Source: Astrocystis sublimbata
Taxonomy: Eukaryota; Ascomycota; Sordariomycetes; Xylariales; Xylariaceae
Direction of reading: 5' to 3'
Assembly: GCA_022453515.1 (NCBI GenBank)
Contig: JAJNNY010000024.1
Coordinates: 310,001-374,000 of the forward strand
Length of the DNA stretch: 64,000 nucleotides
The position numbers and the translations under genes are program-made. Every line of letters begins with the position of its first letter. Positions within the stretch are counted from its first letter, which is position 1. Shown here piece by piece: positions 15,339 to 60,687 of the stretch. Under the pieces are notes generated by a model. It was not told the origin of the DNA. It saw only the letters and a program-made list of their open reading frames with translations, and did no database searches.

Positions 15339-16538
15339 CTATGTCCGCCGACTTCGGTTGGCAGGGGAAACCCCGGTTTCGACGTCAGCGGGCCGAGACT
15401 TCTTGCGACCAAAACCGAAGAGACCACCGCTTGACCTGCCTTCCCGGCGGTCATGGTGAACTCTCGCCGGGGCGGGTTGCGATACAGGAGATTGCGAAGA
15501 TGCAACACCACTCGTTTGGGGAGTATGGTGCCTTGGCGGGTTGTTGGTAGGTTTTCGGTTCGCGCGCGAAGAATGCGATCTGTCGGGTGTTTCGCTCTGG
15601 AGGCGGTCGAATTCGGCTGGGTCGCTGGGATCAACGGCGGGAACAGGCTGCCCATTGGCACGGAGGTTCTTTTTGCCCTTTTGGCGAAGATGCTCCTCCA
15701 ATGCAGCAGCGTTCCGTGTATTGGCAAGGACCAGGGCATCGGCAAGATCGCCGACAAACGGGACCAGCCCAATGATCAGGTCCACGATCACCCAGAAGTA
15801 CATCTTAAGGAGCAGGCCGAACGGGAGACCACCTTCGATCTGTTTCGCTGTGCGGACAACAAGCAATGCAAGGAATGTATCGGCAAGGTCTCCAAGTCTA
15901 AAACAGGCAAAGTACTTAGTCGAAGGAAGAAACAGCGAATATGAACTGGCCTACTTACATGGGAACGAGAGCCAGGAGACTTCCCCATCCGAACTTGATG
16001 CCCAAAACGCTACCGAAAGCCATATCTAGGCGGTATGCCCTTCTCTTCACCTTGGTGAGAACCTCCGCGTCGTGAACGGAGATGCCAGGCGGTGCGGCTT
16101 TGCGGACTTTCTTGGTTTTGCCGTTTGGGTTGCCATCAAGCCTCGTTGCTGGAACCTTATTTATCACGCTGGAGTCAACAATTGCCTTTTCACAGCAAAA
16201 GAAGCTGCTTATGAAGCGGGGGTATGCAGGTGTCTCGCGAGCACAGATACGGAGCTGTTAGAGTAATGTGTGCCCCCGAGCCTTGCCAGCGCGGGGGGAT
16301 AGAAGACGTGAACTAACCTGTTCAAAATAGGGATCCTATACAGCCATTCGGTCAGTCAAATTGTATTGCGCCTTGCATCGTGTGGCCCGCCGATTGGCGT
16401 ATAGTTCAAGCAGCTGGTGGGTGCCCGTTCTGACAGTGCAATACTTACATCCACTCCAAATCTGTTCTCAAGTCTCTCCTTTAGAATCTTGTCTTTGATG
16501 AGCTTCCCCCCAACCCATTTCGCAATATAACTACCCAT
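15339..16538 (-). CDS. DUF4112 membrane protein
   Basis: Minus-strand exons are 16449-16538, 16318-16335 (18 bases), 15959-16155 and 15339-15897, giving 287 residues. The N-terminus is MGSYIAKWVGGKLIKDKI. DPYFEQVPATRLDGNPNG follows, then the DUF4112 core: LTKVKRRAYRLDM, FGWGSLLALVPILGDLAD and FWVIVDLIIGLVPFVGDLAD. The two VPxxGDLAD hydrophobic hairpins are the family hallmark and suggest two to three membrane passes. The C-terminal 110 residues are hydrophilic and low-complexity. No reaction is established for this family. The second intron (16156-16317) belongs to the introner-like family described separately and abuts the 18-base exon. Its acceptor is AAG rather than the usual YAG; it is chosen because the TAA just upstream would stop any longer exon. 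Confidence 0.85.
16156..16317 (-). mobile_element. introner-like intron, copy in the DUF4112 gene
   Basis: This 162-nt intron shares ordered blocks with introns in the catalase, alcohol dehydrogenase and NSS transporter genes. On the coding strand these include GGCTCGGGGGCACA, GCTCGCGAGACACCTGCA and AGGCAATTGTTGACTCCAGC, followed by GTGATAAATAAG. The first two blocks are partly complementary and can form a hairpin. AGGTT occurs at both exon junctions, a possible short target duplication. Confidence 0.75.
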
Positions 16539-19500
16539 GGCGGATAACGAGCGATTGCGAGATATCTCTGAGGCGATCGAAATGATGGTGTTCGTTGGGA
16601 TGAGGTGGTATGGCGTGTGCTTCTAGATTTCTGGCTGCCCGTGGACTGAGAAGCCTTACCTGAGGCCGCAACAGAAACTTGTCCGCTCGCTGCCAAGCAG
16701 TTTCAGGTTATTAGATAATATCTTTGAAAGTCGAGATTTCCCAGCGGCACGGGTGTCTCTCGGAACCAGTAAGGCTTTATCTTCAAGGTAGATCAAAGGC
16801 TCAAAGATTGCAGGTGTCTAGACACGTCAACACGCATCTAGCTGAGGTAGGCGCCCTCCCAAAAGCTTGGAAATTACTGCACATACCTATGATGTCATGG
16901 CCCCTTGTCGCGAGCTTGACCCTTCACAGACACGGGGCGCTCGTACTGTGGCTGTGCTGTGGCGGCAAGTGTGGCCAGTCGCAAGTGCGATGACCTCACC
17001 TCCACGTGTCTCCTATCCTAGATTAGGTACCTAGGTCCTTAGCAAAAGAGCAAAAGCACAAAAGCACAAAGAGGCAGCCTGCAACATCTCCGTACAACTT
17101 GTAAAGTCCAAGAACCTTGAAATAATATCATACTTTGCCAACATGCACTTGTGTGCTGTTCAATCCTCTACCTTATTTCGTCTGACTAGGTAGTCTCTTT
17201 AGGTATTGAGTAGCATGATCGAGGCCCTGGCTCATTGGAGACACCAAGATGGGTACTATCCGTCGGCAGGTGCCTTTCTTCCAATACAACAACAATCTCG
17301 CCTCTTTCTGAATATATCTATGTCTACCAAACCTTGAAGTGAGTACAAGTGAAAACTCTGTTCTGTCGGCACGCACGTGTAAGGCAAGAGTCTAGGAGAG
17401 AGCTAGAAACATGTATTAGGTATGGTTCAAGATCATCGATGGGCAAGATCTAGACCGGGCGTGCTGCTAATTTCCTATGCTATCTTACCCGCCAATACCG
17501 GTGCTGCTTGCACCATATTCGCCCATATCTTCGATCTAAAAGTACCGTCCCTACATCAACCTCCATCAACGCTGACCTTGACTAGCCCAACACCCCCTTC
17601 AGCATTCTATCCTCGGAGGGTTGATAAACTGTACCGTTAGTTGCTGATCCATAACGAATTTTATCTTACGAAAGTGTCCGCTGCTTGCCGCCCGGGAAGA
17701 TACGCGCGTCTCCTATATCCAAGAGCTCAGTTGACGTTCAAAGCCCGCAAGGTGTAATCCAGACTCGATGTGGCCCAGCACCACAACACAGCGTGGCGTC
17801 GACTTCTTGAAGGCACACCTTGGGTACGACCTAGATTGTTAATACAGTTACCCCAGCAATGTTTAGCCATGGCGTTGGTGTTGCTACAAGTTCACGATGC
17901 AGCAAGCTGCACAAGCCATCATCGCCCTAGCAGGTTCTCTTCAGATATGAATCCCCTTCTTCTCGGAAATATGTAGCCGGATTGGAGAAACAAAACGACT
18001 CGCGAGGAGATGTCATTGAATCCATCCAAGGGATAGGACAGCTAGGGATGGGATTTCTTATTGCGGCAGGTAACAATTGATTAGTAAGTGGTCAAGAAGT
18101 AGTGATTATATGATAAATAACATTAATAGTCATACATACATAATACATGCATGCATATAAATATATGATTCTAGTATATATATCTACATAAATTTCTTCA
18201 CCCCACGAAAAAAAACTATCATGTAGTCGTACCGTGGATCGAACACGGAACCTTCTCGGGACAAAGTACACATACATGTGAACGAGAAATCATAACCATT
18301 AGACCATACGACTTTCAATCCATCTAATTTGAGATGGAAATTTCATCTACGAGCTAGATTATAAAGTCTTGCCTGTGATACCATACCTATTATATGTTCT
18401 TAAGCTATAATTATGAACTCGAAAAGCGTAGTTTGCATAGATTCATTCAGCTCGGTATAAACAGAGTTGTAGGAAACTGTATTCTTTCAAGAATCTCTCC
18501 TAAACGCTTCATAGATATCATATTCAGCGTCTAGATCCTGACGCCCGGTATCCTCCGAGATTGTCCGAGGAGCTTGCAGGAGAGGTTGATGTTTCGCATA
18601 CTTATCGGCCGTCTCAAACACAAATTTCAAAGAACAGATCGGAGCCCTCGTTGACCAGAATAAGTAGGAAAAGTATAGAGCTGTAAGTCCTAGTCACTCA
18701 GTCTTATCGCTCATTACTTCAGGTCCGAAGTTACAGTATTTACTTGATTGCGCCCAACAAGTGTGGAGTTTCATAGCATACCAACTCCTATGTCGGAGCA
18801 AGTGCTGCATCTCTACGGAGACAACGGCTCGCAGAAGCTTGCTTTCTACGAGGGCATATATTAAAACGTAACTACATACGTCACGAAAACGAACCTTTTG
18901 TTGATTCTATGTGTTTACCGGATAGCATTTAATGCTTTTCGGCGATGAAAACTCGCCCCGTCAACTTTGGTCATAGCCATATCGCTTTTAAAGATAAGCT
19001 TGTTCGTGTACCATTCGTTGCATAGGACTCCCGCAGCTGCTTTTTGACTGGAAGAATCGGAAAGGGTGACTGGCTACAATGGCACTTAAATTTGACGATG
19101 GATATCCGTGGGTTGCTGGGCGCTATGAAGACCTTAGATTAGAGTGTGAGAACTTTGTAATTGGAGCCAGTCGATGCCGCCATGAGTTGGATTATGTCCA
19201 GTGTGCTCCTGAATGACGAGGACGGGGTTGTGTTAGAGGCCGGTTGAGAAGAGCCGGTCAGCAGTATTGCCGGCATGATAGACAAAAGGCTTGATCCAGT
19301 TCCGTCCTTCAAATGATTGATCATCTTGGGACAGCGTCGAACCATCTCGCGCCGAGATCATATAGGTCGGATTGTTGCGACTTGTGGTAATTAAGTATGT
19401 AATATTGAGAGCTAGGCAAAGTTGAACTTGAGTCGACTACCAAGCCACCTCGAAAAGTAAAATACCCTGTGCCAATGATGCCATAGACTCTCTAGGCTCT

Positions 19501-19652
19501 CTTGGTTTTGATCGCCACGCGACTTGGGTAGTTGATCGGTTCTATGGGGTTGTGCCACCTCCTTCAGCTTTTGGAAACAACAGAACTATCGCACTGCCTG
19601 GTTTCCATGAAGACACTGCTGCTGACATGAATGAGGTAAGTGAACCCAGCTT
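16539..19652. other. gene-poor, relatively AT-rich stretch with one tRNA
   Basis: No protein-coding gene can be supported. Open frames are short, lack family motifs and do not join by splicing. The stretch 18090-18200 is low-complexity AT sequence. A tRNA-Val lies at 18224-18313. Part of 19140-19400 (minus strand) resembles decayed coding sequence, but I cannot assign it. Confidence 0.55.
18224..18313 (-). tRNA. tRNA-Val (anticodon CAC) with a 17-nt intron
   Basis: Read on the minus strand, the 7-bp acceptor stem AGTCGTA/TACGACT pairs perfectly, with discriminator A. The D arm contains the A box TGGTCTAATGG. The anticodon stem is TCTCG/CGAGA and the T arm is CCGTG-TTCGATC-CACGG. The anticodon loop is 24 nt. 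Placing the intron at the canonical position after base 37 leaves the loop TTCACAC, so the anticodon is CAC. The intron contains ATGTG, which can pair with CACAT across the anticodon, as eukaryotic pre-tRNA introns do. Base pair 1-72 is A-T rather than the common G-C. Confidence 0.85.
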
Positions 19653-20471
19653 TCACAGCCCCCATTTGTCAATATCTGCCATAAGACTATTGTTCTTCAC
19701 ACCGTCCGGGAAGTCTTCTTCGCCAAGATGCGTGGTATGCGCCCACGGTTTCAAGCAATTTTCTTGTCTGATGGTCTCGGAAAAGCATTGACTCCAGCCC
19801 TCGCGTGGAAACTGTTTGTTGACATCGAGTCTCGTCGCCTCATCGATGAGCCCGGGGTTCCCACCCATGTTGTCATAGACTGTAGCGAGCTGGATTACCT
19901 GCCCTAGAAATGTTATGGTCCCAATACTTCCCAGATCCTGGTGGCGTATGATGGCCTCAGCGACAGCCTCTGCTTGTGCCTTCGATGCCCCATGTTCCTG
20001 TGTGAGATTCAGGGCAAGTATGCCACCGTAGAACTCAAACGACAGTAACGTCGCGCGTAGATTGTCATGCGTGGTACCGATATCGTGGAGCAAGCAGGCT
20101 AAGGCCAAAGTCGACAGGGACATTTTGCTACCAAGCTCCGGAAATTGGTCTTTGATAATTGAGTAACCTGTAAATGGCCAAGGTAAGCATCGTTTTGCAA
20201 TCATGACGTTTGTGTCAAGGCATCGGTAATTACCCCAGTGATATACACGCATCGAATGGTTATATGTCTGCTCCGTCAAATGATGCTTTGCATATTTATG
20301 AACTTGTGCCACCACAGGATCATCGGCCGGGAAGTGCACATCGGATGATAGTAGCGGTGATGGTTTGATTATGGGTTTCTTTTCGAATATGACGTTTGCG
20401 TCGACCGGAACAGCTGTCCATCCGTGTACAGCAATCTCGTCCAGCGAGGCAGCTGGCGTGATAGAGGACAT
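19653..20471 (-). CDS. HD-domain protein resembling cyanamide hydratase (DDI2/3-like)
   Basis: Minus-strand exons are 20234-20471 and 19653-20167, giving 250 residues. The start MSSITPAASLDEIAVHGWTA aligns with the N-terminus of Myrothecium cyanamide hydratase (NGWTAVPV motif). The HD phosphohydrolase metal site is complete: His in YNHSMRVYHWG, His-Asp in LACLLHDIGTTHDN, His in AEAIIRHQDLG and Asp in LATVYDN. The ending WAHTTHLGEEDF also fits. The family converts cyanamide to urea using zinc; the yeast homologues DDI2/DDI3 are induced by cyanamide and by alkylating agents. The activity in this fungus is inferred, because related HD proteins may act on isocyanides or other nitriles. The single 66-nt intron (20168-20233) has no stop and keeps the frame, so retention would add 22 residues in front of the catalytic HD. 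I removed it because family members read straight from HWG to YS. Confidence 0.85.
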   Translation of the reverse strand: MSSITPAASLDEIAVHGWTAVPVDANVIFEKKPIIKPSPLLSSDVHFPADDPVVAQVHKYAKHHLTEQTYNHSMRVYHWGNYRCLDTNVMIAKRCLPWPFTGYSIIKDQFPELGSKMSLSTLALACLLHDIGTTHDNLRATLLSFEFYGGILALNLTQEHGASKAQAEAVAEAIIRHQDLGSIGTITFLGQVIQLATVYDNMGGNPGLIDEATRLDVNKQFPREGWSQCFSETIRQENCLKPWAHTTHLGEEDFPDGVKNNSLMADIDKWGL

Positions 20472-22242
20472 GACTTTCTGGCATGTAATTACAATACAAG
20501 ATATATGGTAATATACGCAATGAGCTGCGAGGACACGTGTTTGATGATGGAGACTACTTGGGAATCCCAATTCTATTTATGAAGTGAATATCTCCCAGAG
20601 CATATTATATCATCAGCCCGTCAAAATGTCGATTGTGGAATATCACTACATGGGGGAAACGCACTTACCAAGCAAAGTAGCGCTTACCTAAGATATGAAT
20701 ATTATTTGAACTTCCGCGGCATTTGGCGCTATCAGATCCCGAAACAGGGCACTGGCGTATTGTTTGAGCCTTTATATTGGAATCTTACTCTGTATTTTAT
20801 AGTGGCTCCGTTGTTCCGAATCACCGCAAGCTTCGGATGGTTTGTGGGCTCCTGGGCCAGCTAATTACTCCAGTCTCCAACTAGAAGCAGGTGCAATCAT
20901 CCATATATTCATAGCTAGTGCAAAATTTGTCACTGATTGCATGTGGGTTCTACTTAAGAAAAACACGGTGGCCGTTGCTTTCTGCTTTGAGTACGCCAGG
21001 CTGGAGGAAGCCTGTGGATTAGTTAATACTTCGTTGGAAATAAACTTTAACTGACCTAAAATGTCGAACCCAGATCATGGATGAGCAACATAGTTTCTAG
21101 GTTGTGTTCTTATCAAGATGTCCGACTTTCGCTGCGATCCTCCAACTATAAGTTGGATTTCAGGGGAACAACAGTGTAGGGAGAATCTTTTCTCTTGATT
21201 TGGCCTCACAGACGCAAAGATTCTATCGGTGAAATGCTTGTATCCTTAATATTATAGACTTTGAGGGCCGTCAATGATGAAGAAGTCCGGCCACGAGTTG
21301 TTCTAGCTTCAAGGTCAGATGTACGATGACTTGTCAAGTCCGTTCCAGGGCATTGGCCAAGTACTCAATTAGCATATTCAAGTGCCAAGAAGGAACTAGG
21401 CAGAATATGATCTCGGTAATCCCTTGCCCTCCGTGATCATTTCCATACTGAACTGCAAGTTGAAAGTCACTTGAAGTTTAGGTACTTGCGACCACAATTG
21501 CAATTCATTTCAGAAAGTGAGTTCGAGCTGACTGGAACTTTCGACCGTGTCAATTTGCTGAATAGGCCCTTCAATAGGCTCTCGAGATACAACAACGCCA
21601 TTGTAGTTTCATCGAATTATCGATACCTGTGACATTATCTAGGTCTTCGTCGATGAGGTGTTGAGCAGGTATTGCCAATACAACAGGTAATATAATTACA
21701 CCACAAATAGCAGTACAGCCAGTGACTGGCTATTTACCGCGGAGTTCAAGAAACGATGAAAGTGTCAGCTATTTATATAGCGCTACTTCTTCTGCACCTC
21801 CAGTCACGCTGTAAACTCCGATATGGTCATAACATGGGAATATCGTTGACAAGCGGCACACAGCGTCAAGAAGACCCCTTCGTGTTGCCCAAAACAGCAC
21901 TAACCCGCATGGGGTCTGCAATCTCTGGGCGCCTGAAAGAATAATACCCAGTTATATGTGTATAGATCTCTGTTAGATCTGTACCTACTTGTAAATGGCA
22001 AACAGTTGAGATGAATGACTAAGCGAAGTGCGTTGAAGAACTGGTGGGGTGTAAACCCCGACCTATATCCTGCTTGACGGGGGTTGATTTACGTAGCGTT
22101 ACAGTCGAGAGTCTCAGCGTTCTGCACGGAAGCAGCTAAGGTTCCAGGTTAGGTTGCCAGCATCATGGATTCTGTGTTTGTAAATGAACAGCAGCTCTCG
22201 GCAGCTTGCATTCAAAGCCGAAAGTGCTAAACCCCGCGGGGA

Positions 22243-22268
22243 CCCGCCACCCCGCCACCCCGCCAGCC
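22243..22268 (+). repeat. 8-bp tandem repeat (CGCCACCC unit)
   Basis: Three copies of a CCGCCACC-type unit lie in tandem, an island of high GC in an otherwise moderate-GC intergenic region. Confidence 0.7.
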
Positions 22269-22533
22269 CCCAGTCCGGACCTTACAGTAGGTAGGTACCT
22301 TACTTAAGTACATAGAATAGCCCGATTGCCAACAGTGGCATCTTGATTGGTCGACTAGCATCATGAGAGGCAGCTTCGAGTGGGACGTGCCACGAGGTAG
22401 CGGACCAACTTCTCCGCCATTACATCAGTACTTGATCGTGTTCATCAACAAAATGCAACGCCATCAGAATCTCGCTCGTATTTGCTAGTTTCCTAGTATG
22501 GCAAATTGAGACCGAAACGTGCAAGAATCCCAT

Positions 22534-22561
22534 GCATTTCCGCATTTCCGCATTTCCGCAT
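22534..22561 (+). repeat. 8-bp tandem repeat (GCATTTCC unit)
   Basis: About 3.4 head-to-tail copies of GCATTTCC are visible directly in the sequence. Confidence 0.75.
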
Positions 22562-22919
22562 ATTTGCCGCATTGCAGTCCCTTGGCCAGGCGTACTGGGA
22601 CAGCTAATTGGGTTGTGAAGATACGTCCTGTGTTTCACCATGACGTCAAGGATGCTGGAATACACAGCGGGAAGGCGCAAATGGGGGAGTTTATTGCCTT
22701 ATAAGATAAGTCCACTGCTGCTACCTAATCTACATGTAGGAAGATAGGTACATAGGTAAGTAGGCTGTACCTGACAGAAGGTTATATGAGAGCCCATTTC
22801 TTGCCCTTACCAACCCAGCTACCTACCTACCCACCTACTTACTTGACGTCTGAGCTTCAGCACTCTACGGCTTATTGTAAATCCCCAAACCACCGCACGT
22901 TCTCACGTCACAGCTGGCA

Positions 22920-25650
22920 ATGTCCGCTGTAGATAAGGTTAAAGACATGGTCGCCGGCGAGAAAGAGCGCAAGATTGCCCAGCTCGACTCGTACAGCCAG
23001 TCTGTCACCACAGGCGACCGCCTCACCACCGACTATGGTGTAAAACAGCCCACAGCCGCCCCCGATGAGTGGCTCAGAGTGGTCAGAGATGGCCAGACCG
23101 GCCCCATGCTACTGGAGGATAGTATCGCGCGAGAGAAGGTAGGTGTCAAACTATTCTGCCTGCATAGACCAGAGGCGTAGTATCATGCTGGGCCGTCCCT
23201 GGACTGACCGAGCCAACCAACCCAGATCCACAGATTCGACCATGAGCGAATCCCAGAGCGAGTCGTACACGCTCGAGGCGCTGGCGCCTTCGGAAACTTC
23301 CGACTGTTTGAAAGTGCCGAAGACGTATCGTTCGCCCCCGTCTTGACAGACACTTCAAGAGAGACTCCCGTCTTCGTTCGTTTCTCGACGGTCCAGGGAT
23401 CGAGAGGTAGCGCAGACACAGTTCGTGATGTGAGGGGTTTTGCCGTAAAGTTCTACACCCAAGAGGGGAATTGGGATATCGTTGGAAACAACATCCCCGT
23501 GTTCTGTGAGTAGTTCATTGTCATTCTGCTTCCCGTCTTCAGGCTCCAGCAGCAGCTCATTTCTACAACAGTCATCCAAGACGCCATAAAATTCCCAGAT
23601 TTTGTGCATGCAGTGAAGCCTGAGCCGCACAACGAAGTACCACAAGCGCAGTCCGCCCACAACAACTTTTGGGATTTCGTATATCTGCATCCAGAGGCGA
23701 CACACATGGTATGTATAAATCCTGCAGTGCCGGATACCTTAGTCCCAATGTGTCGCTTGATGAAGCACTTTCCATCAAATGGAGGTTGGGAATCTTGACT
23801 GACATGCTTTTATGCACGCAGTATACATGGGCAATGTCTGATCGAGCTATCCCTAGATCGTACCGTATGGTATGTTTTAACTGAGGGTTTCCATTGCCCC
23901 CCCCCCCCCCCTCTGCGTATTCCACCTGCTTGAATTGTGATCACTGACTTGGCGATGTTTAGATGCAAGGGTTTGGTGTTAACACCTTTACACTGGTCAA
24001 CAAGAAGGGCGAGCATCACTTTGTCAAGTTTCACTTCACACCAGAGCTTGGCGTGCACTCATTTGTGTGGGATGAGGTCAGTTCACTGAAGTCTTTTTCC
24101 CCCCTCTTCTGGCAATGCTTGGATGCTTGAATTACCTTAACAGGTACCTCTGCTCCCGAGGCACCTGCAACCCCACGTTCACGAGCAATTCCTTCACTGT
24201 TAAAGGCAATTATTGACTTCAGCGTGATGAATAGGCATTGAAACTGGCTGGTCAGGACCCGGACTTTCACAGAAAGGATCTGTGGGAAGCCATCGAGAAC
24301 GGCGCTTTTCCGAAATGGAAGTTTGGAATACAGACCATCCCAGAATCGAACGAACACGACTTCGACTTTGATATCTTAGATGCCACTAAGATTTGGCCTG
24401 AAGACCTTGTTCCCGTTCGTTATATTGGCGAGCTGGAACTCAACCGCAATGTCGATGAGTACTTCACACAAACCGAACAGGTTGCGTTTTGCACCTCGCA
24501 TATGGTGCCTGGAATTGCCCACTCAGACGACCCTCTACTTCAGGGTCGAAGCTTCAGCTACCAAGACACCCAACTGTCACGTCTAGGCATCAATTGGCAG
24601 GAACTGCCAATCAATAAGCCGGTCTGCCCTTACATGAACTTCAACCGTGATGGCCAAGGACGCCACACTATTACGAAAGGAACTGTCAATTACTGGCCCA
24701 ACAGATTTGATGTTCGACCTCCTGCCAATGCTGAAGAAGGGGCGTATCACGACCCCCCTCGCGCAGTAGAAGGCATCAAAGCCCGAACCAAGAGCTCCAA
24801 GTTCAGAGAGCACTATAACCAGGCGCACTTATTCTACAATAGCCTAAGCGCTCCAGAGAAGAGCCATATTGCGGCAGCCTTTGCCTTCGAATTGGACCAC
24901 TGTGATGATCCAATCGTATACGAGCGTATGTCTCAGCGGCTAGCGGACATCGATTTGGAGCTCGCACAAACTGTGGCCGAAATGGTGGGCGGCACTAAGC
25001 CGACGAAGGCGACGAAGATCAATGCTGGAAAAAAGACCATACACCTTAGCCAGACCGAGTTTTCGCCTGCCAAGCTTACGATAGCAACCCGCCGAGTCGC
25101 CATTATCATCGCTGATGGCTTCGACAAGACAACTTATGATGCTATCACAACCGCTATCAAGGCCTCAGGCGCTTTGCCCTTTACCATTGCTCCACGACGA
25201 TCGGAAATCTATCCTGCGGGCGCCGAGAAAAACTCAGGTAAAGGTGTCCAGCCTGACCATCATCTCGAAGGCATGCGCTCGACCATGTTTGATGCGCTAT
25301 TCGTACCAGGCGGCGAAGAATCAATCAAGACACTTCAAAAGAGTGGCCGAGCTGTGCACTGGATTCGCGAAGCATTTGGCCATCTCAAGGCGATTGGTGC
25401 GACCGGAGAAGCTGTGAAATTGCTCGAACACGCAATTTCCCTGCCCGAGATCAAGATGTCAGATGATGGCACAACCATTGAATCTTACGGCGTGGTAACA
25501 ATAGGCAAGATTTCGCCTGATAGCTTGAAAGGTGCTGTCAACATCTTGAAGGAGGGTACCGATTTTGTGCAGCAGTTCTGGTACCAAATCTCGCAACACA
25601 AGAACTTCTCCAGGGAGATGGATGGCCTGAGTACCCAGGTGGCATATTAA
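22920..25650 (+). CDS. catA: large-subunit catalase, CatA type
   Basis: Exons are 22920-23138, 23226-23505, 23572-23708, 23822-23869, 23963-24076 and 24235-25650, giving 737 residues. Catalase splits hydrogen peroxide to water and oxygen. The N-terminus ([18 protein letters not shown]) lacks a signal peptide, as in Aspergillus nidulans CatA of spores, so it is probably intracellular. The active-site His lies in [15 protein letters not shown] and the Asn in [19 protein letters not shown]. The haem-ligand Tyr lies in [15 protein letters not shown]. Residues from about 560 form the DJ-1/class-I amidotransferase-like C-terminal domain ([18 protein letters not shown], then [16 protein letters not shown]) found only in large catalases. 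Intron 4 contains a run of 15 C (23897-23911). Intron 5 (24077-24234) is an introner-like copy. Exon joints were fixed by phase and conserved sequence; exon 4 begins YTWAMSDR where relatives have FMWAMSDR. Confidence 0.94.
24077..24234 (+). mobile_element. introner-like intron, copy in the catalase gene
   Basis: This 158-nt phase-0 intron carries the shared blocks CTCTGCTCCCGAGGCACCTG, CACGAGCAATTCC and GTTAAAGGCAATTATTGACT, and ends GCGTGATGAATAG. The last motif closely matches the end of the DUF4112 copy (GCGTGATAAATAAG). Confidence 0.75.
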
Positions 25651-26189
25651 TGGATTGGGATGAAGAAGTTATGGATTTGTGTATCATTCACAGTTTAGTT
25701 CTGTCTCCTGTAGTCTCAAGAAATTTGCACTTGCTGGACGATATATGGCATACCATCTACCCAAACTTGCACCGCCCTTGCTCCAATAGTAAGGTGCGTG
25801 CGTCTCGCAGGCTGTAACAGGAAGAGTGCTACTTCACCTGCATATCACTTCTGTTCCCCTCACGGATATGAGCGGATCGCAATAAAACAGCCTATAAGAT
25901 CCCTTGTCTCTGCAAGTAACAGCGAATGTAGTAGGAAGTTTTGGTATCGAGGTAGAATAGCCAAGCTTGTCTATGTCCACGCGCCTCTAGCATGCATGAG
26001 GAGATCTGTCCTCCTCAGTTGCCTCAAATAAAAAGATTAGGCAAGAAGGGGGTATTAACAACTTTTCTAAAACCTGTGGTATTCTCATCAATCTCTATGA
26101 AACCCCCATTAAAGCAGCTATCGCTTTATCCAATATATCTGTTGCGAGGGTGAGTATATCGCGAGCAACCTCGAGTCAGTAATAATACA
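25651..26189. other. intergenic region between catalase and alcohol dehydrogenase
   Basis: Tandem genes on the plus strand lie on either side. I see nothing but 3' UTR and promoter-like sequence; the open frame at 25798-26031 lacks support. Confidence 0.55.
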
Positions 26190-27574
26190 ATGAAGGCCGG
26201 GCAGTGGGACCCCGTAAGACTCGAAAGCCTCCAACCCCTCCCAAGAAGTTTTTTAACCCATATAAGAAGCCGTTGTGGGCACACAGCTGACACCTAGCTC
26301 ATAGCAAAACAAGAGGATTGTCATCAACGATGTGCCGGTCCCCGAGCCCTCCAAGGACAAGTTCTTGGTGCAGATTAAGTCGGCTTCCTTATGCCATTCG
26401 GACCTAATGGCTCTGATGCGAGACCAGGGGCCTGCAATGACAATGGGCCATGAAGGGGCTGGCGTCGTTGAGAAAATCCACCCCTCGGCCGAGGGAAAGG
26501 GCTTCAAAGTCGGGGATGCCATTGGATTCAATTACTTCGTCAATGTCTGTTACGAATGCGATGGATGCCAAATCCATAATTCGCATTGCGAGAACACGGA
26601 CTTGCCCATGTGTCAAGGCTTTCACGCCGATGGTTTCTTCCAGGAATACGCTCTTGTGGATTACCACAATGCCGTCGTGTTACCGCCAGAGCTGGACGTA
26701 AAGCTCGCATCGCCGTTGTTTTGTGCTGGGATTACGGGTATGTCGGCTGCATTGCCCTCATGTGCCAGTGGCTCATGAGGCGATTCATTCGTGTTTAGAA
26801 GCACTGAACTTCCCCCATTGAGACGGAATCATGTCTAACAGTCCCACACAGCCTTCAATTGTATAGACAGTTGCGAACTGCAGCCAGGCCAGTGGTTGGC
26901 CATCGTAGGCTGCGGCGGACTAGGCCAATATGCGGTGAAGTTCGCAAAGGCGATGGGGTACAATGTTATCGGGGTCGACATTAGCGACGACTCGCTGGCC
27001 TCTGCGACAAAATACGGCGCGGATGCTGTGTTCAACTCGCGGACTCAAGCTGATACCTACGTTGAAGAGATCAAGACGTTGAGCACCAAAGGTGTTCATG
27101 CGGCAGCTGTTTTCTCGGGCGCCAATGCGGCATATGACGGAGCTATCCCCTTACTGCGCACGAATGGCCTGCTCATGGTCGTAGGTAGCTCGCTGGAGTC
27201 ATTTCTTCCCGTTCCTTGCAAGTCTCGGGAGTATGAATTACCCCAACCGGTACCTGTACACCCGAGACACGGATTCACGAGCAATTTCAATTTCTTCACC
27301 CTAGTTAACAGGCAATTTACTGACTCCAGCGGTATAGGTCGGTATCGCTCCACAGCCAGTACAGTTTGATACTACAGACCTCGTCACCGGAAGATACCGA
27401 ATCAAGGGGGACAGTACAGGCATCCCGCAGCGCATGGCTAAGGCTGTCGATTTTGTGGTGAAACATAAGATTCAGCTGGATGTTGACTTGAATAGGATTG
27501 AGGACCTGCCAACCATGGTGGAGAATATGAAGAATGGAAAGGCGAAAAACCGACAGATCGTCACGTTGTTTTGA
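26190..27574 (+). CDS. zinc-dependent alcohol dehydrogenase (MDR family, ADH1-like)
   Basis: Exons are 26190-26213 (24 bases), 26305-26737, 26852-27180 and 27338-27574, giving 340 residues. The enzyme class interconverts alcohols and aldehydes with NAD. Visible motifs are SASLCHSDL (catalytic-zinc Cys), MTMGHEGAGVVEK (catalytic His-Glu), CYECDGCQIHNSHCEN (four structural-zinc Cys), GCGGLGQYAVKFAKAMG (nucleotide-binding loop) and GVDISDDSL (cofactor-binding Asp). The first exon gives MKAGQWDP and joins QNKRIVIND, matching family N-termini. The exon 2-3 joint follows FCAGITAFNCIDS. Intron 3 (27181-27337) is an introner-like copy that interrupts LLMV-VGIAPQP. Substrate preference cannot be read from the sequence. 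It follows catalase on the same strand and is convergent with the DUF4267 gene. Confidence 0.92.
27181..27337 (+). mobile_element. introner-like intron, copy in the alcohol dehydrogenase gene
   Basis: This 157-nt phase-0 intron shows the family blocks AAGTCTCGGGAGTA, TACACCCGAGACAC, CACGAGCAATTTC and GTTAACAGGCAATTTACTGA, then CTCCAGCGGTATAG. The first two are inverted copies of each other. It is the most diverged of the four copies. Confidence 0.75.
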
Positions 27575-27777
27575 ATTTAGTATTCGCTCTGAGTTGAGTC
27601 AGACCACCAGTTGATGGATACAATGTACCATCTCTTGACGAGACGAGAAATATGCGCAGTGGCATCCCGATGCTCATTACATTGGCTACAATGCAAGTAT
27701 GGGGTGAACCGCCTGTTCTTGGTGAACATCGCAGCCCAACAGATCGGGTCGAGCACAATCAAGACCATTTCGCCGTT

Positions 27778-28167
27778 TCAGCGCCCAGCCGTTGCCCCCA
27801 AGAACCCACACGCTGCAAGGAAACCGGAGCTGACAAGTCGGAAAACAGCTTTCTGCTTGTTTCCCTCCTTCCATACCAACAAGCTGTCCACCAACCCGCA
27901 GTAGGCCCCTGTGACAGCCAGTATGGTATCGACGACCTCCAATTGATTGCGGAAGTAGAAGATATATGTGAGGAGACCGATCACAGTCGTCCGCACATTT
28001 CCAACTTTGAATGGAGATGCCGCCGCCGGCGTTTCCGCGATGCGAGGTGGAAAGCCAAATTCTGACAAGGTGCCGTGAGGGTTCAGCAGCGAATACAAGC
28101 CGCCAAATGTCATTGTAGTGGCGACAATGAGCGCTGGAACGTGATTGAGCTTAAGTAGGACTGACAT
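27778..28167 (-). CDS. small four-helix membrane protein, DUF4267 type
   Basis: One uninterrupted frame of 129 residues starts at ATG 28167 and ends at 27778. The sequence opens MSVLLKLNHVPALIVATTMT and includes GGLYSLLNPHGTLSEFGFP, RTTVIGLLTYIFYFR, DTILAVTGAYCGLVDSLLVW and AVFRLVSSGFLAACGF. This order (GFP motif, then R-TT helix, then VDSxxVWKEG) is that of fungal DUF4267 proteins, predicted integral membrane proteins with four helices and no established function. The gene is convergent with the alcohol dehydrogenase, with 203 bases between stops. Length fits the family (about 130). Confidence 0.8.
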   Translation of the reverse strand: MSVLLKLNHVPALIVATTMTFGGLYSLLNPHGTLSEFGFPPRIAETPAAASPFKVGNVRTTVIGLLTYIFYFRNQLEVVDTILAVTGAYCGLVDSLLVWKEGNKQKAVFRLVSSGFLAACGFLGATAGR

Positions 28168-30279: not shown

Positions 30280-30594
30280 TGAAATTGACGATGGCATGAG
30301 TGGGCATTGATTTGCACCATTAACGGCGTAGGCGTTTTGGTTCAACTGGGAGGCATGGTGGGCGAAGGAGTTCAGGTTTTGCTTTCATGATCGTTGATCG
30401 TGTCTCGTCATCATCCATGATAATTAAGCGTTAGGACTACATGCACAGGCAATTGAGCAAAGTCTTCCTCTTGCCGGCTTCAGGTCAAGACAAGATGCTG
30501 CCCCGTGAGTGTGATATCTATTGGTACAAATTACAGGCAGGACCCTCCTGGCGTGCGTAGTGAGTGAGGGCTTCGTTCACTTGAATCTGCCTCA
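30280..30594. other. convergent 3' region between ark1 and atp23
   Basis: About 315 bases between two stop codons on opposite strands. I see only 3' UTR-type sequence. Confidence 0.6.
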
Positions 30595-53200: not shown

Positions 53201-53769
53201 CCCTTTTCCATCTGATTTAGCCGCCCTGCTATATTTGTCTCTGCCCCATGCCAACCCTGCGGCCATCACATTCCAGCTCACCACCGACCGGCGACAAGGT
53301 ACCTGCATCCTTGTCACAGCACACCGTCGAGACCACCGCGTCCCCCCCGCGGGCCTACGTGTGGCCCACCCGGTCACAGCAGAGGCCGTTGTACACATGT
53401 TGTCTAATTGCTAGGGGTGTCCACATTCCCGTCGACTGTTTTCGGAAGAGAGGTTGGTTTCAAGATCTCATCTAGAAGATCCTCTCAATAAGACCCTCTC
53501 ATATGCCCGTGCGGCTATGGAGAGACGGGTAGATATATATAATTCTACCCACATAGTAGTAGTAATGGTCTCCGACTGACAGCCCACACCACTCGCCTGC
53601 TCCTCCATGTCGTCGAGTGTTTGGCGGCTTCGTTTGACTCGGACCAACGTCGAACCACCCGGAGAGGCTTGACTGCATACACTGCCTCCCATTATTTCTC
53701 TTCGCGCCACTCGCTTCTTGTCGTCCGATATTCTCTTTCCTCTAGCATCCTCTTCGTTTCGGAGGCAAA
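50213..53769. other. 3.5-kb gene-free interval
   Basis: No gene can be supported; frames are short and composition is uneven. 50650-52860 is rich in TACCTAGGTA palindromes (separate entry). 53480-53769 is probably the leader of the next gene. Confidence 0.55.
50650..52860. repeat. second dense cluster of TACCTAGGTA-type palindromes
   Basis: Units and half-units (TACCTACC, GGTAGGTA, CCTAGGTA) recur at about 50665-50700, 51085-51320, 51600-51630, 51826-51915 and 52034-52165, with weaker ones at 52770-52815. The best-preserved block, 51826-51915, has the full palindrome two or three times within 90 bases. Confidence 0.75.
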
Positions 53770-55482
53770 ATGTCACTTTCCAAACAGCGTATCTCATCGC
53801 CTCTCGAGGCAGGCAGGTCGATCCTCGACGCCAACCTGCCTCCACACCTGGTCGGGGCCCTCGAGTACGCGTCGAAGCGGCTCGCACGCAAGAACCTCAA
53901 TGTCTCCCTCATCGTAGTGAAGAACGAGCATCAGTTACCAAGTGCGCAATCTTGTGCCGCCCCCATATCACCCCCACAGACACCCGAACCCTCGGCGTCG
54001 GGCTTCGCCTCGCCGTCACGTTTCACGTCTCCGGTGGTCGGGCTACGGCATCTGGTGCGCAGAGGGACAAACACCTCTGTTGCTTCAACTAGCTCGACAT
54101 CCACGTCATCTTCATCTGCTTCAGAGACGACGCCCAGCAAGTTGACGTCTCCCACATTTCCTACAGAATCCATCAACAGCCCACGGCGATGGATATTGCC
54201 GCTAAGCCCGCTTCCTTCGACACCCATGACACCCCACACTCCTTCCAGCATTGCTACCATCACATCAGCCGCATCATCCTGCGCCACTTCCTTCCCGTTT
54301 CAAAACCTAGAGCCCTTGGGAATTCGCCTCGTCCATACGTCAACATACTCCTCAAAGGATGAGAGGATAATACTCTCAACCATCAACAAGGCTGAACGCA
54401 AGTTCCACATTGGGGCGGGTGGGTTGCCAACCGTCACAACCGCCTTGGCCTGTGGGCTGTGTGCCGATATTATGCAACGCAGTATCGAACAAAATGAGAT
54501 ACTCTTCTCGTCAGAAGGATTGACCCTTCTGGGGCTGGACCGGCTATATAGCTTCAAGGCCGCCCTCTGCGCTTATGCAACGTCGATCGGCACAGAAGCA
54601 CGCTCACCAGGGTTGTCAAATCATCCTATCTCCAAGATGCCTCCAACACCCACACCCACGTCCGCCACAGACAGCTCGCGTCTGGAAGAAGCCGTTGATT
54701 GTCTAAGGCGGCTAGTGCTATCGAATGGCGACCGCTCCCTGCCGAGGGCGGACCTCTACCGAAGCTTTGATTGGATAATAATCGATTCGACCGCGCTATC
54801 GGACGTCGAGGACATGTATCGACGTGCCTACGGCGGAACGGAGCGACGGGGGCCTTTCGCGGAACCTCCTCCTGTACCTGAAAAGGACAAGAAGTACGAG
54901 AAAGACGGTGCCTTTGACGTGAAGAAACATATCGGCCACTTCAAGATCGGCACACCGCCTCCACCAAAAACACAGACGCAGACAACGCCAGTCTTGAAGC
55001 TGAATACCAATGTTAACACGTCACCACACCTCATCAAGCCGAAACCGAGAACCATGCCGCCTCATGCCCCGACTCTGAACACCGCAGCAAGTCTTGGAGG
55101 AAGGCACGACACATATCAAGGCGCCAGTGGTAAAGGGGTCGTCGAAGTCGAAGAGCTGGAGATCAGATTTGACGCTGCAGAAATTGCGACGGAGAAGGGA
55201 AATGACTACAGTCACGATGAAGACGGCGACCGTACGCCGCTTCCATTGCGTGATGGGCCGTTGCGGCCATCGATGTTCTGGCGTAGAGGCGCCACGCTCA
55301 GCGGATCCATCGATGAACTGCTGTCACCATGTGATAACAGCAGGCAGTCACAGCAGCTAGGCCCGATGACGCCAAACGGGTACGATGATATCTCCCCAAT
55401 AACAAGGGGTGAATGGGGATTTTTGTTCAAGGGCGATACCTGGATGCAGGGAACTCGAGCCCCTGTAGCCTTTGTGCAATAG
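53770..55482 (+). CDS. fungal-specific protein, DUF7582-like, function unknown
   Basis: A single uninterrupted frame of 570 residues starts at ATG 53770. Residues about 18-55 (ILDANLPPHLVGALEYASKR, then LARKNLNVSLIVV) resemble the N-terminal segment of fungal DUF7582 proteins; the assignment is from memory of the pattern and is tentative. A Ser/Thr/Pro-rich block (residues 60-175) is followed by a globular part with LGIRLVHTSTYSSKDERIIL, KAERKFHIGAGG and ALACGLCADIMQRSIEQNEI. The part after about residue 350 is mostly disordered. It includes PPPPKTQTQTTP and ends in FLFKGDTWMQGTRAPV. No signal peptide or membrane segment is seen. Many Ser/Thr-Pro sites suggest phosphorylation. The gene is convergent with the PRCC-like gene. 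Confidence 0.75.
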   Translation: MSLSKQRISSPLEAGRSILDANLPPHLVGALEYASKRLARKNLNVSLIVVKNEHQLPSAQSCAAPISPPQTPEPSASGFASPSRFTSPVVGLRHLVRRGTNTSVASTSSTSTSSSSASETTPSKLTSPTFPTESINSPRRWILPLSPLPSTPMTPHTPSSIATITSAASSCATSFPFQNLEPLGIRLVHTSTYSSKDERIILSTINKAERKFHIGAGGLPTVTTALACGLCADIMQRSIEQNEILFSSEGLTLLGLDRLYSFKAALCAYATSIGTEARSPGLSNHPISKMPPTPTPTSATDSSRLEEAVDCLRRLVLSNGDRSLPRADLYRSFDWIIIDSTALSDVEDMYRRAYGGTERRGPFAEPPPVPEKDKKYEKDGAFDVKKHIGHFKIGTPPPPKTQTQTTPVLKLNTNVNTSPHLIKPKPRTMPPHAPTLNTAASLGGRHDTYQGASGKGVVEVEELEIRFDAAEIATEKGNDYSHDEDGDRTPLPLRDGPLRPSMFWRRGATLSGSIDELLSPCDNSRQSQQLGPMTPNGYDDISPITRGEWGFLFKGDTWMQGTRAPVAFVQ

Positions 55483-55663
55483 ATCATGTATAAATCAACG
55501 ATATCCACAATAGCGAGATTGCTTTGAGAATTACAAGAATAGCTTTGACATCAAAGTTTGATGATGCCACCGCGAGACCGTGACGTGACTTGACATGCCG
55601 TGATTTATGGCATTGCTGCTTATTGTGACTCTTCAGAAGAAGAAAAAGTGCCTAAGCGCCATG

Positions 55664-56896
55664 TTAACGCCAGCCGTACCGCGACCCAGCGTCGTTCTGC
55701 TTGGACTTTCCCTGCGCGAAGCTCTCCTCGAGCGCGTCTCGCTGAGTCTGGACCTGGTTGACGAGCTGGCGCAGATTGTGCTTGCCCGGGGCGATGGCCC
55801 GCAGCGGGTTGTGAACCTGTTGCTCCCCGCTCGCCCGCAGCTCCTCGTTGTGTGCATACTCTTTCTCGGTGTTGAAGTTGATAACTCTGGAGGCGGCTAC
55901 GCTGGCGTTCGGGGCGCCGCCTCGTCCGAACAGCTCGCGTCGCGCGGCTGCTGAGAGGTTCATGTCGCTAGCTATGCTGTCCAGCGAGTTGGCGGTGGCA
56001 TAGTTTGTGCTTGGGGCCGATGCGGCTTGCGAAGGCGCGGCGTAGGAGTTGTACTGGGCGTCGTAGGCGGCAAAGGCGTCGGCTGAAGACATATCCGTGC
56101 TGCCGGTGGCCATGATCGGTTCGTACTCATCGTGGCTCGCGTCTCGGGACTCGGGGATGTCTGGCGTTTCGTCGGGTACGAAGAACAGGGATACTTTCTT
56201 CTTTGGCGGAGGCTCAAGCTTAGCGGCCGACCCTTCAGTTTCCGGTGTTGCCGAAGTAGGCGCAGAAAGAGTTGCAACGGGGACAGTGGATTTCGCAGCG
56301 ACCTTCTTCGCGAGTTTCTTTCTCGACACAGATAACGGCTTGAACATCAGTGGTTTGCCAACCAGCTCCACGTCGTCTGCTGGCTTCTGGCCCGCCGGAA
56401 TCGATGGCTGCTGTGATCTAGGCTCTGGCAGCCGCATGCCACCATCTCCATCCGTGTCGGCGTCGCCCTGACCGTCCACATCTCTGCTGAAGCCAGGCGC
56501 AGCACCTGTCTTCAGATGGACGCCTGGCCGCGGCGGGTTTGTTCCTTTGGTAGCGCCGCTGCTGCTGCTGGCACTAGCCACCGAACTTGCCGACGTCTTG
56601 CCAACGTTTTTGGGAGGCGGAAGAAAGGAGTTGAAGCCGCTGAAAGCTCCGCCCTTCGTGATCCGCGCGCGCTTCGCCGGGGGTCCATCTCCGTTCGTCG
56701 CGGCGTTGCCGGAATCCTGCCGGCCTGACGAGCTCTTTGGCAGGCTGACTAGGATTTTGCCTGGTTTGGAGCGGTCGACGACCTTCTGGAATGGCTTCTT
56801 GCTTCCACTCGCGGTGGGCGGGTGCTGAGGTGGCGGCGCTGGCTTCGCGACGGTCTCCGTCTCGGACTCCGAGTCGGAGTAGTCGACGAGCCCCAT
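55664..56896 (-). CDS. PRCC-like protein (mitotic checkpoint regulator / MAD2B-interacting family)
   Basis: A single uninterrupted frame of 410 residues starts at ATG 56896. The start MGLVDYSDSESETE is the family hallmark. A Pro/Ser/Lys-rich disordered stretch follows, with KILVSLPKSSS and KRARITKGGAFSGFNSFLPP. The conserved C-terminal part has RRELFGRGG, VINFNTEKEYAHNEELRASG, NPLRAIAPGKHNLRQLVNQV and a terminal SRYGWR, all typical of the PRCC family. Human PRCC is a nuclear proline-rich protein associated with splicing factors and reported to bind MAD2B; the fungal role is not established. About 180 bases separate its stop from that of the DUF7582-like gene. Confidence 0.85.
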   Translation of the reverse strand: MGLVDYSDSESETETVAKPAPPPQHPPTASGSKKPFQKVVDRSKPGKILVSLPKSSSGRQDSGNAATNGDGPPAKRARITKGGAFSGFNSFLPPPKNVGKTSASSVASASSSSGATKGTNPPRPGVHLKTGAAPGFSRDVDGQGDADTDGDGGMRLPEPRSQQPSIPAGQKPADDVELVGKPLMFKPLSVSRKKLAKKVAAKSTVPVATLSAPTSATPETEGSAAKLEPPPKKKVSLFFVPDETPDIPESRDASHDEYEPIMATGSTDMSSADAFAAYDAQYNSYAAPSQAASAPSTNYATANSLDSIASDMNLSAAARRELFGRGGAPNASVAASRVINFNTEKEYAHNEELRASGEQQVHNPLRAIAPGKHNLRQLVNQVQTQRDALEESFAQGKSKQNDAGSRYGWR

Positions 56897-58354
56897 TATC
56901 GACAGCTATAGAGCGGACTATAGAAGAAGAAAAACCTTTTTGGTAGAGCTCGTCGCGTGAGGGACGCGAAACATTGATGATGCTCGAAAAATGATCGTGG
57001 GTGATGCAAGAAATGTATGCGCTAGGCACCTCGGCACCTAAGCTTCCTAGGTAGGTGGTGGCCTGTAGGTGCCCTAAGGTATACCTTACTGAAGGACATC
57101 AGGTAGGTACCTAGACCAACCAACACCTCACTTCCAAGCTTCAGCAACGTCACCCATGACTAAGTATTATTTTACAACAGTTATCACAGTCGCAGACCTT
57201 TTTTCCCCTAAATGCCGGCCTTCATGAATTGCCTGCAATGTATTTTATCCGGTATTATTCTCCAGTGCTATCTAGCAGTAGTCGGGTACCTAACAGCCTA
57301 AGCGTGAGTTGTACCGACAATATGAACAAGCCTACCTACTCTGAAAAGATGCCTTTACAGCTTAAACCATCTTACTGGCCATATAAGAGAACGGTTGCAC
57401 TTCAAAACACGGCCTTGTTGAGCTGACCAGATGTCGCGAGGCTAATGTCCATTAGCGTATACGCCCGAGGCTGGACTTCATCCCAGCCGTCTGAACAAGA
57501 TGGTTGTACTTACACATATAGGCCTGGCGTCGTGTGACACGATCTATGACCATGCGTATTTGAGCAACATTCGACATATGCTTCCTCACCACGCGGCCCT
57601 GCGTGAACCCGGAATTGTTTTATTTTATTTTATTTTATTCCATTTCGTTTCATGTGGCCCGATTCTTCAGCTTAGGGATATCCTACTAGTTCTTAGAAGA
57701 CATGTCCACATTCGATAATATGGTCCAACGATAGAAACGGTAGCTTTGCCCGTCAACGCTCGCTTATCAGGTACTCCCGTTTCTACCATGTATGACGATG
57801 TTCGCACACCACGTGCTAATTCCCATACCAAGCCTGACCAGTGTCTTGGCTGTCCATCACAACATCAGTTGCCAAGCGGTGCTGGGGACTGTCCTGACTG
57901 TCTCGCGACCGTGTTGTGCGTCTAGTTCAATACTCGATGGTGCCGTATACCCGCCGAGGCCGCACCCGGTATGTCTCGGCGCTCTCGGCGGTCTTGGCCG
58001 AACCTGAGAACCGACTTGGTCTCCGGTCTGTTGACCTCGAAACGGCATCGTTGTCGAACATGGATTGAATCCCATCGCACTTGGCGACCCGATCGCTCCA
58101 ATGACGCGATGGCCATCAAGATTAGGAAAGAGTGGCAATGGCAAACTCATATCTTCCCTCCCATGGTGTCGGGCCTGCCGCTGTGGGGGGGGTTCTTGCT
58201 ATAAGTGGAAAGCATCCCCAGGCCAAGAACGTGTCTGATGTTTATGTCGATTCGTGCGCAGCCTGTCGACTTTCTGTTCAATTCCACCATCTAGCCCACA
58301 TCTCGAATTCACTGCGACGTGAGTCTCGAAGGTGACGAAGGGACAATCCGAACA
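56897..58354. other. intergenic region upstream of the NSS transporter
   Basis: No gene seen. It includes CCTAGGTA motifs near 57045-57115 and a (TTTTA)n run at 57618-57638. Open frames such as 57857-58150 (minus) lack family support. The last 250 bases are probably transporter promoter and leader. Confidence 0.55.
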
Positions 58355-60687
58355 ATGGTAGCTGGCAAATTGAAAAATGCTGTTGCATGGTTGGCTCCGC
58401 CACCAGCCAAGTCAACAGATGGACGTGATCAATGGCCGTCGAGGGCAGCTTTCCTGCTTGCTGCCATGGGTGGATGCGCTGGCCAGGGAAACCTGATTCG
58501 ATATCCATCGGTGGTCTACAACAACTACGGATTGCAATGGTTCATCCCCTATCTGGCTGCCATCCTATTCGTAGCCATCCCGGCTCTTGTCTTAGAGATC
58601 TCCATTGGACAGGCTTACCGCGGCGGTACAGTCATAGCCTTCAACAACATCAATCGGCGGCTGAAGGGCGTCGGCCTCGGTTCTGTGTTTGTCAGTTTCA
58701 TAGTTTGTGGATATTTCACTGTGAATCTCTCCTGGATCCTCGTTTACTTCCGCCATTCGTGTAAGTTCTCCCGATGGTATGATGGGTCGTGGGAATAATA
58801 ACTGACTAGTTATGTTTGTGTAGTCTGGAGCCCCTTACCATGGGAAGGCAGAATCAACGACTTCTACAACAATGATGTTATTGCCAACACAGATCCCATT
58901 GAGGGGAGCTTAACAGCTGGGAACGCGGCAGTGGCATCTTATACTTCATATCCCGGCATTGGTCTAATAGGCGAGACGGTGGGATGGACCGTATTCGTCT
59001 GGTTTCTGATTTGGTTTTCCATCTTCCGTGGTGTGGGGATGACTGGCCGTGTCGTCTATTTTACCATGGGATTACCGATTATCACGACCCTCATTATTGT
59101 CGGTCGGTCAGTGACCCTCGACAACGCCAGCGAGGGAGTTAAACTAGTATGGGCTACTTGGAGAGGCGACCAGCTGGCTTCCGGGACATTGTGGCAAACT
59201 GCTGTTGGCCAAGTCTTCTTCTCGACAGGTATTGGGTTCGGATACTTCACATCATACGCCTCGTACAATGCGAAGCACTCCAATGCCGTCATGGACGCGG
59301 TCCTTATCTGTGTGAGCAATGTTTTGTTCGAAAATGTCGCCGCGTTTGCTGTGTTCGGTGTGGTCGGTTTCCTCCGGCTGTGGCCGCAAGATGGTGTGCG
59401 GCTGGGTGCTTTCGTTGTGGGGTTCCTCACACTTCCCGAGGCTGTACTGCATCTACCGGCTCCTAACTTTTGGGCGATCCTGCTGTTCTTCACTCTCATT
59501 GTTCTCGGTTTCAGCTCTGCTTTCGTCATGCTCGACGCTACGGCAACACTGGTCATGGACTCCGGAGTAAAGTGGTCTCGGCCCGTCGTTGTCACAGTGC
59601 TGACGTTCGTGTCATTTCTGATATGTCTACCGTACTGCACGCAATTCGGATACTATCTCCTTGATGGTGTAGACCGATGGGTGAACAATGGTGCGTAAGG
59701 CTCTTGTTCTAAAGCTAATCTCTCCTACTTCATGCAACCCCATGGAGTGAGTCATTTATTTCCCCTTCTGGCATGTCTCGGGGGCACAAATTGCCCTAAT
59801 AGATATCTATGCTCCCGAGACACCTGCAAACCACTGTTCCATGAGCAATTCTTATACTGTTAAAGGCAATTACTGACTCCAGCTGTTACAGTCCTTGTCA
59901 TCTTTGTCGTATGGGCCGAGGTGACCAGCGCATCATCTGTCTACCGCTGGTCAGATGTCGTCAGTCAGACAGGTGTTGCAGCTTTCGCAGTCTACAACAC
60001 CGGATATTTGGGAGCCCAGGTGATTGGGATCTCAATTGCTCACGGGGTCGGCAATCCCGGCGCTGGCGCCGCCGCCGGTTTCGGGTTCTACATCGTCTGT
60101 TCAGTTGCCGCAATGCTGAGTTCCAAGACACCCGATATCATAGCCCCGTCGTTCTGGGGCAAGAACACTTTCACGGCACGGTACTGGTACCTAGCATTCT
60201 ACTCTGTAAGTCAAAGACCGATACCATTCAAGAACATGCAAAGTAGAAACATTCGGCTGATCGATGAACTGCCCATCAACAGGGCAACCAACTAAAGCGT
60301 GACCTCAACTGCGTGGTTGGCGTAGGCAATAACTGGAAGATTCCGAGCTTCTTGCCTGTTCTCCTTCGCTATGTCAGTGGACCAGCTTTGGCCATAATCT
60401 TCAGCTTCGCGTATCCCGAATTCTATACGCTCCGCTACGACCCCTTGATGATCACAGGCTTCGCCCTCGCTCATGTCCTGCTCGTCATGGTGCTGATTGG
60501 CTTCATCATGCCGAGATACTACAATGTGTTCATTCCTCCCAGTCGGCAGAGCGAGGGGACGGAAAGGACGGTGGTTGGCCAGTCCAAGATGGAGGTGCCT
60601 GAGATCGAATCAGGAAGCGTGGACGGTGCGGCGTCAAAACCCAGCGTCGAGAAGAACCAAGATTCGCCCAAGTTGTCCGAATCCTGA
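58355..60687 (+). CDS. neurotransmitter:sodium symporter family (SLC6/NSS) transporter
   Basis: Exons are 58355-58760, 58824-59690, 59883-60205 and 60283-60687, giving 666 residues. NSS proteins import amino acids or related small molecules with sodium. The fungal signature DQWPSRAAFLLAAMGGCAGQ leads into TM1, where GQGNLIRYPSVVYNNYG corresponds to LeuT G-L-G-N-F-L-R-F-P. Then come FIPYLAAILFVAIPALVLEI and GQAYRGG (TM2), FFSTGIGFGYFTSYASYN (TM6-like unwound region), about ten further hydrophobic segments, and a hydrophilic C-terminal tail of about 60 residues (RQSEGTERTVVGQSKMEV). Leu of the LeuT-type GLGN is Gln here. The frame is open 12 codons upstream, but 58355 is the first ATG and fits relatives. 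Intron 2 (59691-59882) is an introner-like copy. Confidence 0.91.
59691..59882 (+). mobile_element. introner-like intron, copy in the NSS transporter gene
   Basis: This 192-nt phase-1 intron is the longest copy. Blocks in order are GGCATGTCTCGGGGGCACAA, ATGCTCCCGAGACACCTGCA, CATGAGCAATTCTTA, CTGTTAAAGGCAATTACTGA and the end CTCCAG. The first two blocks are inverted copies that could pair over about 12 bp. Splicing occurs directly after CTCCAG, without the extra 3' tail of the other copies. Confidence 0.78.

Follow-up and report, generated by a model that had tools for sequence, protein, structure and literature searches.

How new spliceosomal introns originate is an old question that is still open, and landing sites that differ between the clades of one intron family give a handle on it. 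The window analysed here, the whole 64,000-nucleotide stretch of DNA from Astrocystis sublimbata, a bamboo fungus of the Xylariaceae (a xylarialean Sordariomycete, no Dothideomycete), raises the question directly: are similar introns in four of its genes copies of one mobile element, and how could such copies reach their sites? We read and aligned the four introns and identified, in the same order, the shared sequence blocks that a first-pass annotation had described. Their alignment has a mean column identity of 64%, and a profile built from 24 genomic copies outside the window recovers all four, at 155.9, 95.0, 82.3 and 76.5 bits. The likeness of the four introns is beyond chance.

The positions proposed for the first three introns agree with ours (Table 1), and that of the fourth, in an NSS transporter gene, needed correction at its end, which is 59891 and not 59882. 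The transporter query is 100% identical to the public A. sublimbata protein P0001, which reads ...VNN|VLVIF across the junction, and the junction is ungapped in the 59 other NSS homologues aligned (of 845 found), indicating that this intron occupies 59691-59891. Its first 42 nt (59691-59732) do not match the introner family and have a donor of their own, GTGCGT, as well as a GCTAAT; this stretch may be an earlier intron, within or next to which the copy inserted.

Table 1. Introner copies and their parts in the window (clades as described in the text; a vertical bar marks an exon boundary)
Feature	Position	Strand	Evidence
Introner copy, clade B, intron of DUF4112 gene	16156..16317	-	exon ...CAG|GTTAGTTC...AATAAG|GTTCC; translated join ...DPYFEQ|VPATRLDG
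Introner copy, clade B, intron of catalase gene	24077..24234	+	exon ...GAG|GTCAGTTCAC...GATGAATAG|GCA; spliced protein ungapped against PDB 1sy7
Introner copy, clade C, intron of alcohol dehydrogenase gene	27181..27337	+	...GTC|GTAGGTAGCTC...GGTATAG|GTC; spliced reading LLMVVGIAPQPVQFD
Intron of NSS transporter gene, holding a clade A copy	59691..59891	+	splice sites from P0001 and 59 aligned homologues
Clade A introner copy within the NSS intron	59733..59891	+	5' GTATGC decayed to TCATGC; 3' end GTTACAG|T
Internal hairpin (TGTCTCGGGG...CCCGAGACA) in the clade A copy	59774..59822	+	self-complementary profile match on the opposite strand; fold of copy L008
Branch-point-like CTGAC within the 3' inverted-repeat arm	59873..59877	+	sequence; conserved across the 24-copy alignment; probable role from the fungal consensus

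Searching the host genome, as had been proposed for these introns, revealed a family well beyond the four copies of the window. A first look gave 134 candidates, and all 40 that were scored, the query included, match the fourth intron at 82-100% identity. A 17-nt core, allowing up to 3 mismatches, occurs at 341 places in the host genome and its reversed control at 119, indicating roughly 220 places in excess; by our own count 42 places are exact and 43 have one mismatch (85 together). Two places with at most one mismatch in the core, L067 (21 bits) and L073 (8.7 bits), score too low to count as copies. The terminal arms of clade A, also at up to 3 mismatches, were identified at 49 (five-prime) and 80 (three-prime) genomic places, compared to a single place for either reversed control, and the viral collection searched with the core gave no exact match. 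From the core places, nearby further copies and two more searches, we assembled a set of 124 copies (72 of clade A, 32 of clade B and 20 of clade C), each placed in the clade whose profile scores it highest, with 25 bits as the minimum; copies seen later were not added. GT and AG stand exactly at the profile ends in 90 of the 124, the other 34 being left out of this exact-end set for ends that are not GT..AG there, for lying at the edge of a piece or for duplicate flanks. The window, with four copies between 16156 and 59891, compares with an expectation of 0.3 per 64 kb (about 220 in 42.6 Mb).

The copies lie predominantly in sense orientation within coding sequence. Codon scores were obtained for 97 of 101 copies (4 could not be scored), and prefer the sense strand at 89 of the 97, compared to 1987/4000 random window positions. 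The frame restored by removal of the copy is best in 69/97 (random, 1088/4000), and both hold in 65/97 (488/4000). The exceptions, some of which have decayed ends, comprise 8/97 copies in which the antisense strand scores higher and 28/97 in which the restored frame is not the best. Among 20 hand-picked examples of 48 spliced readings, 16 contain a Pfam domain in the sense reading, which crosses the junction in 12 (in one by 2 residues only), and the Pfam-matched host genes are of different families. The codon frames and the public protein P0001 are consistent with splicing, and together suggest that the copies are spliced out by GT..AG removal. Several copies may lie close together on one strand, as in the three about 1 kb apart at L039 (contig C99), in the two 371 nt apart (start to start) in an arginase-like gene at L037 (C67), and in the two 249 nt apart (start to start) at L055 (C113).

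Whole-length likeness is found among introns of several unrelated genes in one genome, and extends to the splice sites in the exact-end copies; on sequence grounds, the family belongs among the introners. The interpretation of the first-pass annotation as introner-like elements is supported by the presence of more than 100 copies, the sense bias, the Pfam domains after splicing and identical copies in unrelated genes. The single family that it envisaged is one family by sequence, and comprises at least three lineages, A, B and C, with one, two and one copies in the window, respectively. In our tree, half of whose inner branches are weak (15/118 starred), C is recovered as a clade (support 98/93), and neither A nor B is strictly a single clade, with the older members of both intermixed at the base. 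The family had also been suspected to be active or recent, and this is borne out by copies L041, in a GNAT gene, and L042, in a 6PGD gene, which are identical over all 157 nt; as these genes are unrelated, the spread is recent. The nearest pairs outside duplicated segments are 98.7% identical in B and 96.8% in C. We are nearly certain that the family is one of introners and has moved recently. Two other pairs of identical copies have the same flanks: L034/L035 belong to a segment duplicated in inverted orientation on contig C11, and L069/L076 (C95, C107) to a segment of C107 that is also present on C95, a 13-kb contig.

Clade A copies read GTATGCAACTCCTGGAGTCA...CTGACTCCAGCGGTTGCAG, most commonly over 157 nt. 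The ends of a family copy are inverted repeats, as in introners derived from DNA transposons; the 3' arm includes CTGAC, and the middle is occupied by an inner hairpin. The RNA fold of copy L008 has a z of -7.8. Over 89 different exact-end copies the median z is -4.0 in A, -2.4 in B and -3.2 in C, and values below -2 were obtained for 42/51, 13/20 and 13/18 copies, respectively. A terminal stem of at least 8 pairs between the first and last 30 nt was identified in 39/51 A, 17/20 B and 17/18 C copies (73/89 in total), compared to an average of 3-4 terminal pairs in shuffled copies. The RNAalifold consensus structure is poor, with almost no covariation and a two-sided change in only 1 of its 29 pairs, so the terminal stem may be merely inherited. 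At L011 (G000:C126:167225-167527) one clade A copy directly follows another, head to tail and without an intervening exon letter (...GTTGCAG|GTATGC...), as though one of them had inserted precisely at the end of the other.

The three lineages differ in the exon letters at which they landed, as counted in the 90 exact-end copies (52 A, 20 B, 18 C). The site of clade A is CA^TG, with T at +1 in 49/52 copies, G at +2 in 34/52, A at -1 in 27/52 and C at -2 in 25/52, the complete CATG being present in 5. Clade B lies after AG (17/20; A at -2 in 19/20, G at -1 in 18/20), and clade C before GT (17/18 at +1,+2). Compared to nearby exon letters, the binomial p is 9e-31 for A, 8e-19 for B and 8e-22 for C. 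At confident clade A sites the interrupted codon is ATG in 7/19 phase-1 cases, and TGG is found at 5/7 phase-0 sites; 11/17 confident clade C sites lie directly before a Val codon.

Comparison with homologues indicates that these letters can be older than the intron. At the junction of the A copy L042, 59 of the 60 homologues aligned (of 120 listed) have Met, which is encoded by ATG only, and all 60 are ungapped; at that of the C copy L045, Val is present in 118 of the 120 homologues listed, and all 120 are ungapped. As the homologues keep Met and Val, the landing letters preceded the intron at both sites. The fungus-like PDB chain 21ap retains, ungapped, the junction Met of the GH43 gene that carries the A copy L016. 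In distant homologues the junction residue differs: two bacterial GH43 chains have Leu at the L016 site, and the 6PGD 2w8z, again ungapped, has Asp where L042 inserted. Searched against PDB, copy L088 had no match, and L020 had weak ones that do not decide its junction.

The continuity of related proteins across the junctions shows that insertion was seamless where compared, and in clade A proceeded without target duplication. Clade A flanks contain no direct repeat of 1-8 nt above shuffles, so that the target site duplication of DNA-transposon introners is not seen in this clade. The exon letters AG in B, and GT in C, are the same as those at the intron's own end, such that a 2-nt duplication would look like a seamless insertion. 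Three other modes were considered for clade A and rejected. Duplication of a GT target would shift the frame by one, and the frames mostly follow removal of 157 nt, with the Met codon intact; for a longer duplication, no flanking repeat of up to 8 nt stood out from shuffles; and for a Helitron-like insertion, blunt A^T fits in part, and the TC..CTRR ends of Helitrons are absent.

We compared the family with previously described introns in the available text of six papers (PMC9860276, PMC8469720, PMC9024468, PMC12403724, PMC4457414 and PMC3510045). The Xylariales stwintrons, reported there to have inverted repeats, seamless insertion and no exon bias (2021, PMC8469720; 2022, PMC9024468; 2025, PMC12403724), are the closest in several respects: they occur in the same order, as many similar introns across unrelated genes, inserted seamlessly, with inverted repeats near both ends, the 3' one beside the branch point, and with short cropped forms. 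The Astrocystis copies differ in being single GT..AG introns of about 157 nt, in their near-terminal repeat (UGCAAC..CUGGAGUCA, compared to 5'-GUAUAAAAAC in the accounts of stwintrons), and in strong clade-specific exon letters where those accounts report none. A sister stwintron of the [D1,2] type, which starts G|GT and in which an internal intron splits the donor, was rejected, G being present at -1 in only 9/52 A and 1/18 C copies. In clade B, G at -1 (18/20) is the last exon letter, and the frame is best with this G kept in 16 of 21 scored B copies.

Introner-like elements of Dothideomycetes (van der Burgt 2012 as cited; Collemare 2015, PMC4457414) are likewise described as near-identical introns in unrelated genes, which decay into ordinary-looking introns (PMC4457414) and have stable secondary structure (as cited in PMC9024468). 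These features recur in the Astrocystis family, which belongs to another class of fungi and is likened to these elements by description, not by sequence; our results lend no support to kinship with the elements of Cladosporium. Introners attributed to DNA transposons are known from algae and protists (Gozashti 2022, PMC9860276; Huff 2016 as cited), and share with our family the inverted repeats and, as regards B and C, an element flanked at either end by a splice-site dinucleotide; they differ from it in that clade A has no target duplication and that a limited search with its arms found no enzyme-coding partner. Ascomycete introners are an outlier in the DNA-transposon account, terminal inverted repeats and target site duplications being reported absent in the available text of PMC9860276, whereas the Astrocystis family has inverted repeats. 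The combination of inverted repeats with clade-specific landing letters is what is new. The literature searched contained no description of this family, and the main text of PMC12403724, as available, does not name Astrocystis; the species may be listed in supplementary tables. We have here an ascomycete family with inverted repeats, with identical copies (perhaps still moving), and with three related lineages that have three landing motifs within one genome, which makes the mechanism testable.

The best explanation, to which we would give a probability of about 55%, is a young introner family in which a spliceosomal intron, non-coding and about 157 nt long, spreads to further coding positions by an RNA-borne route; the RNA link in the movement, taken by itself, has close to even odds. 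We infer that the intron moves as excised RNA, whose terminal arms, TGCAAC..CTGGAGTCA and TGACTCCAG..GTTGCA, would pair, shield the RNA and bring its terminal Gs next to each other. Once folded, this RNA would join a transcript, or else a transcribed strand, via reversal of splicing or ligation, at a short site fitted to the RNA's ends, and the joined intron would be copied into DNA. We advance only tentatively the further idea that the self-folded RNA is itself the mobile agent and chooses the landing site through its own end letters, so that a few changed end nucleotides would have given the three clades their three sites, CA^TG, CAG^ and ^GT; this would be the nuclear equivalent, carried by the spliceosome, of the retrohoming of group II introns. 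The sense bias, the seamlessness and the end-joining stem lean towards an RNA form; against it, plain reverse splicing does not predict strict landing letters, and inverted repeats are a mark of DNA elements too.

The strict letters and the palindromic CA^TG lean instead towards an enzyme acting on DNA, since a palindrome suits an enzyme that acts on a double strand. The copies might accordingly be non-autonomous, MITE-like elements, whose inverted repeats are bound by an unseen enzyme that inserts DNA, either blunt at CA^TG (A) or with a 2-nt duplication in which GT becomes the 5' splice site (C) or AG the 3' splice site (B). The terminal inverted repeats, the short and exact target letters and the identity of exon GT/AG with the intron ends in C/B, which resembles the splice-site co-option described in the available text of PMC9860276, all fit such an element. 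We nonetheless consider it rather unlikely, given the lack of duplication in clade A, even at a Met codon, target letters that vary among lineages of one family, and the strong preference for the sense strand. Further, 36 of the 49 five-prime arms have a three-prime arm at most 180 nt away, and the 12 unpaired five-prime arms that we read, of 13 (the thirteenth is on C80), are copies with changed or short ends, with no long element starting there. Searches of the host genome with both clade A arms, at up to 3 mismatches, yielded no autonomous partner; just one pair of arms was spaced by more than 180 nt and less than 20 kb (C113:651355, 652374), and it comprises a short intron and a separate copy. 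The capture of intron RNA or cDNA at random DNA breaks during repair, as put forward by Fekete and co-workers for Xylariales stwintrons, would agree with seamless insertion, inverted repeats that unite the terminal Gs and the order Xylariales (PMC12403724 and PMC8469720, available text), but we judge it improbable, as random breaks would not yield T at +1 in 49/52, AG in 17/20 and GT in 17/18 copies. Old introns with converged ends, or likeness through gene duplication, might be suggested by the two copy pairs in duplicated segments; this explanation, already at odds with the whole-length likeness, the different families of the Pfam-matched host genes and the different exon flanks of the 90 counted copies (duplicate flanks removed), is refuted by the identity of L041 and L042 in unrelated genes, and we give it practically no weight.

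We additionally identified two mini copies, L120 (G000:C179, locus bases 72-130; 59 nt) and L122 (C77; 63 nt), which consist of barely more than the two arms. T follows the 3' splice site in both, and similar cropped introns have been described in Hypoxylon.
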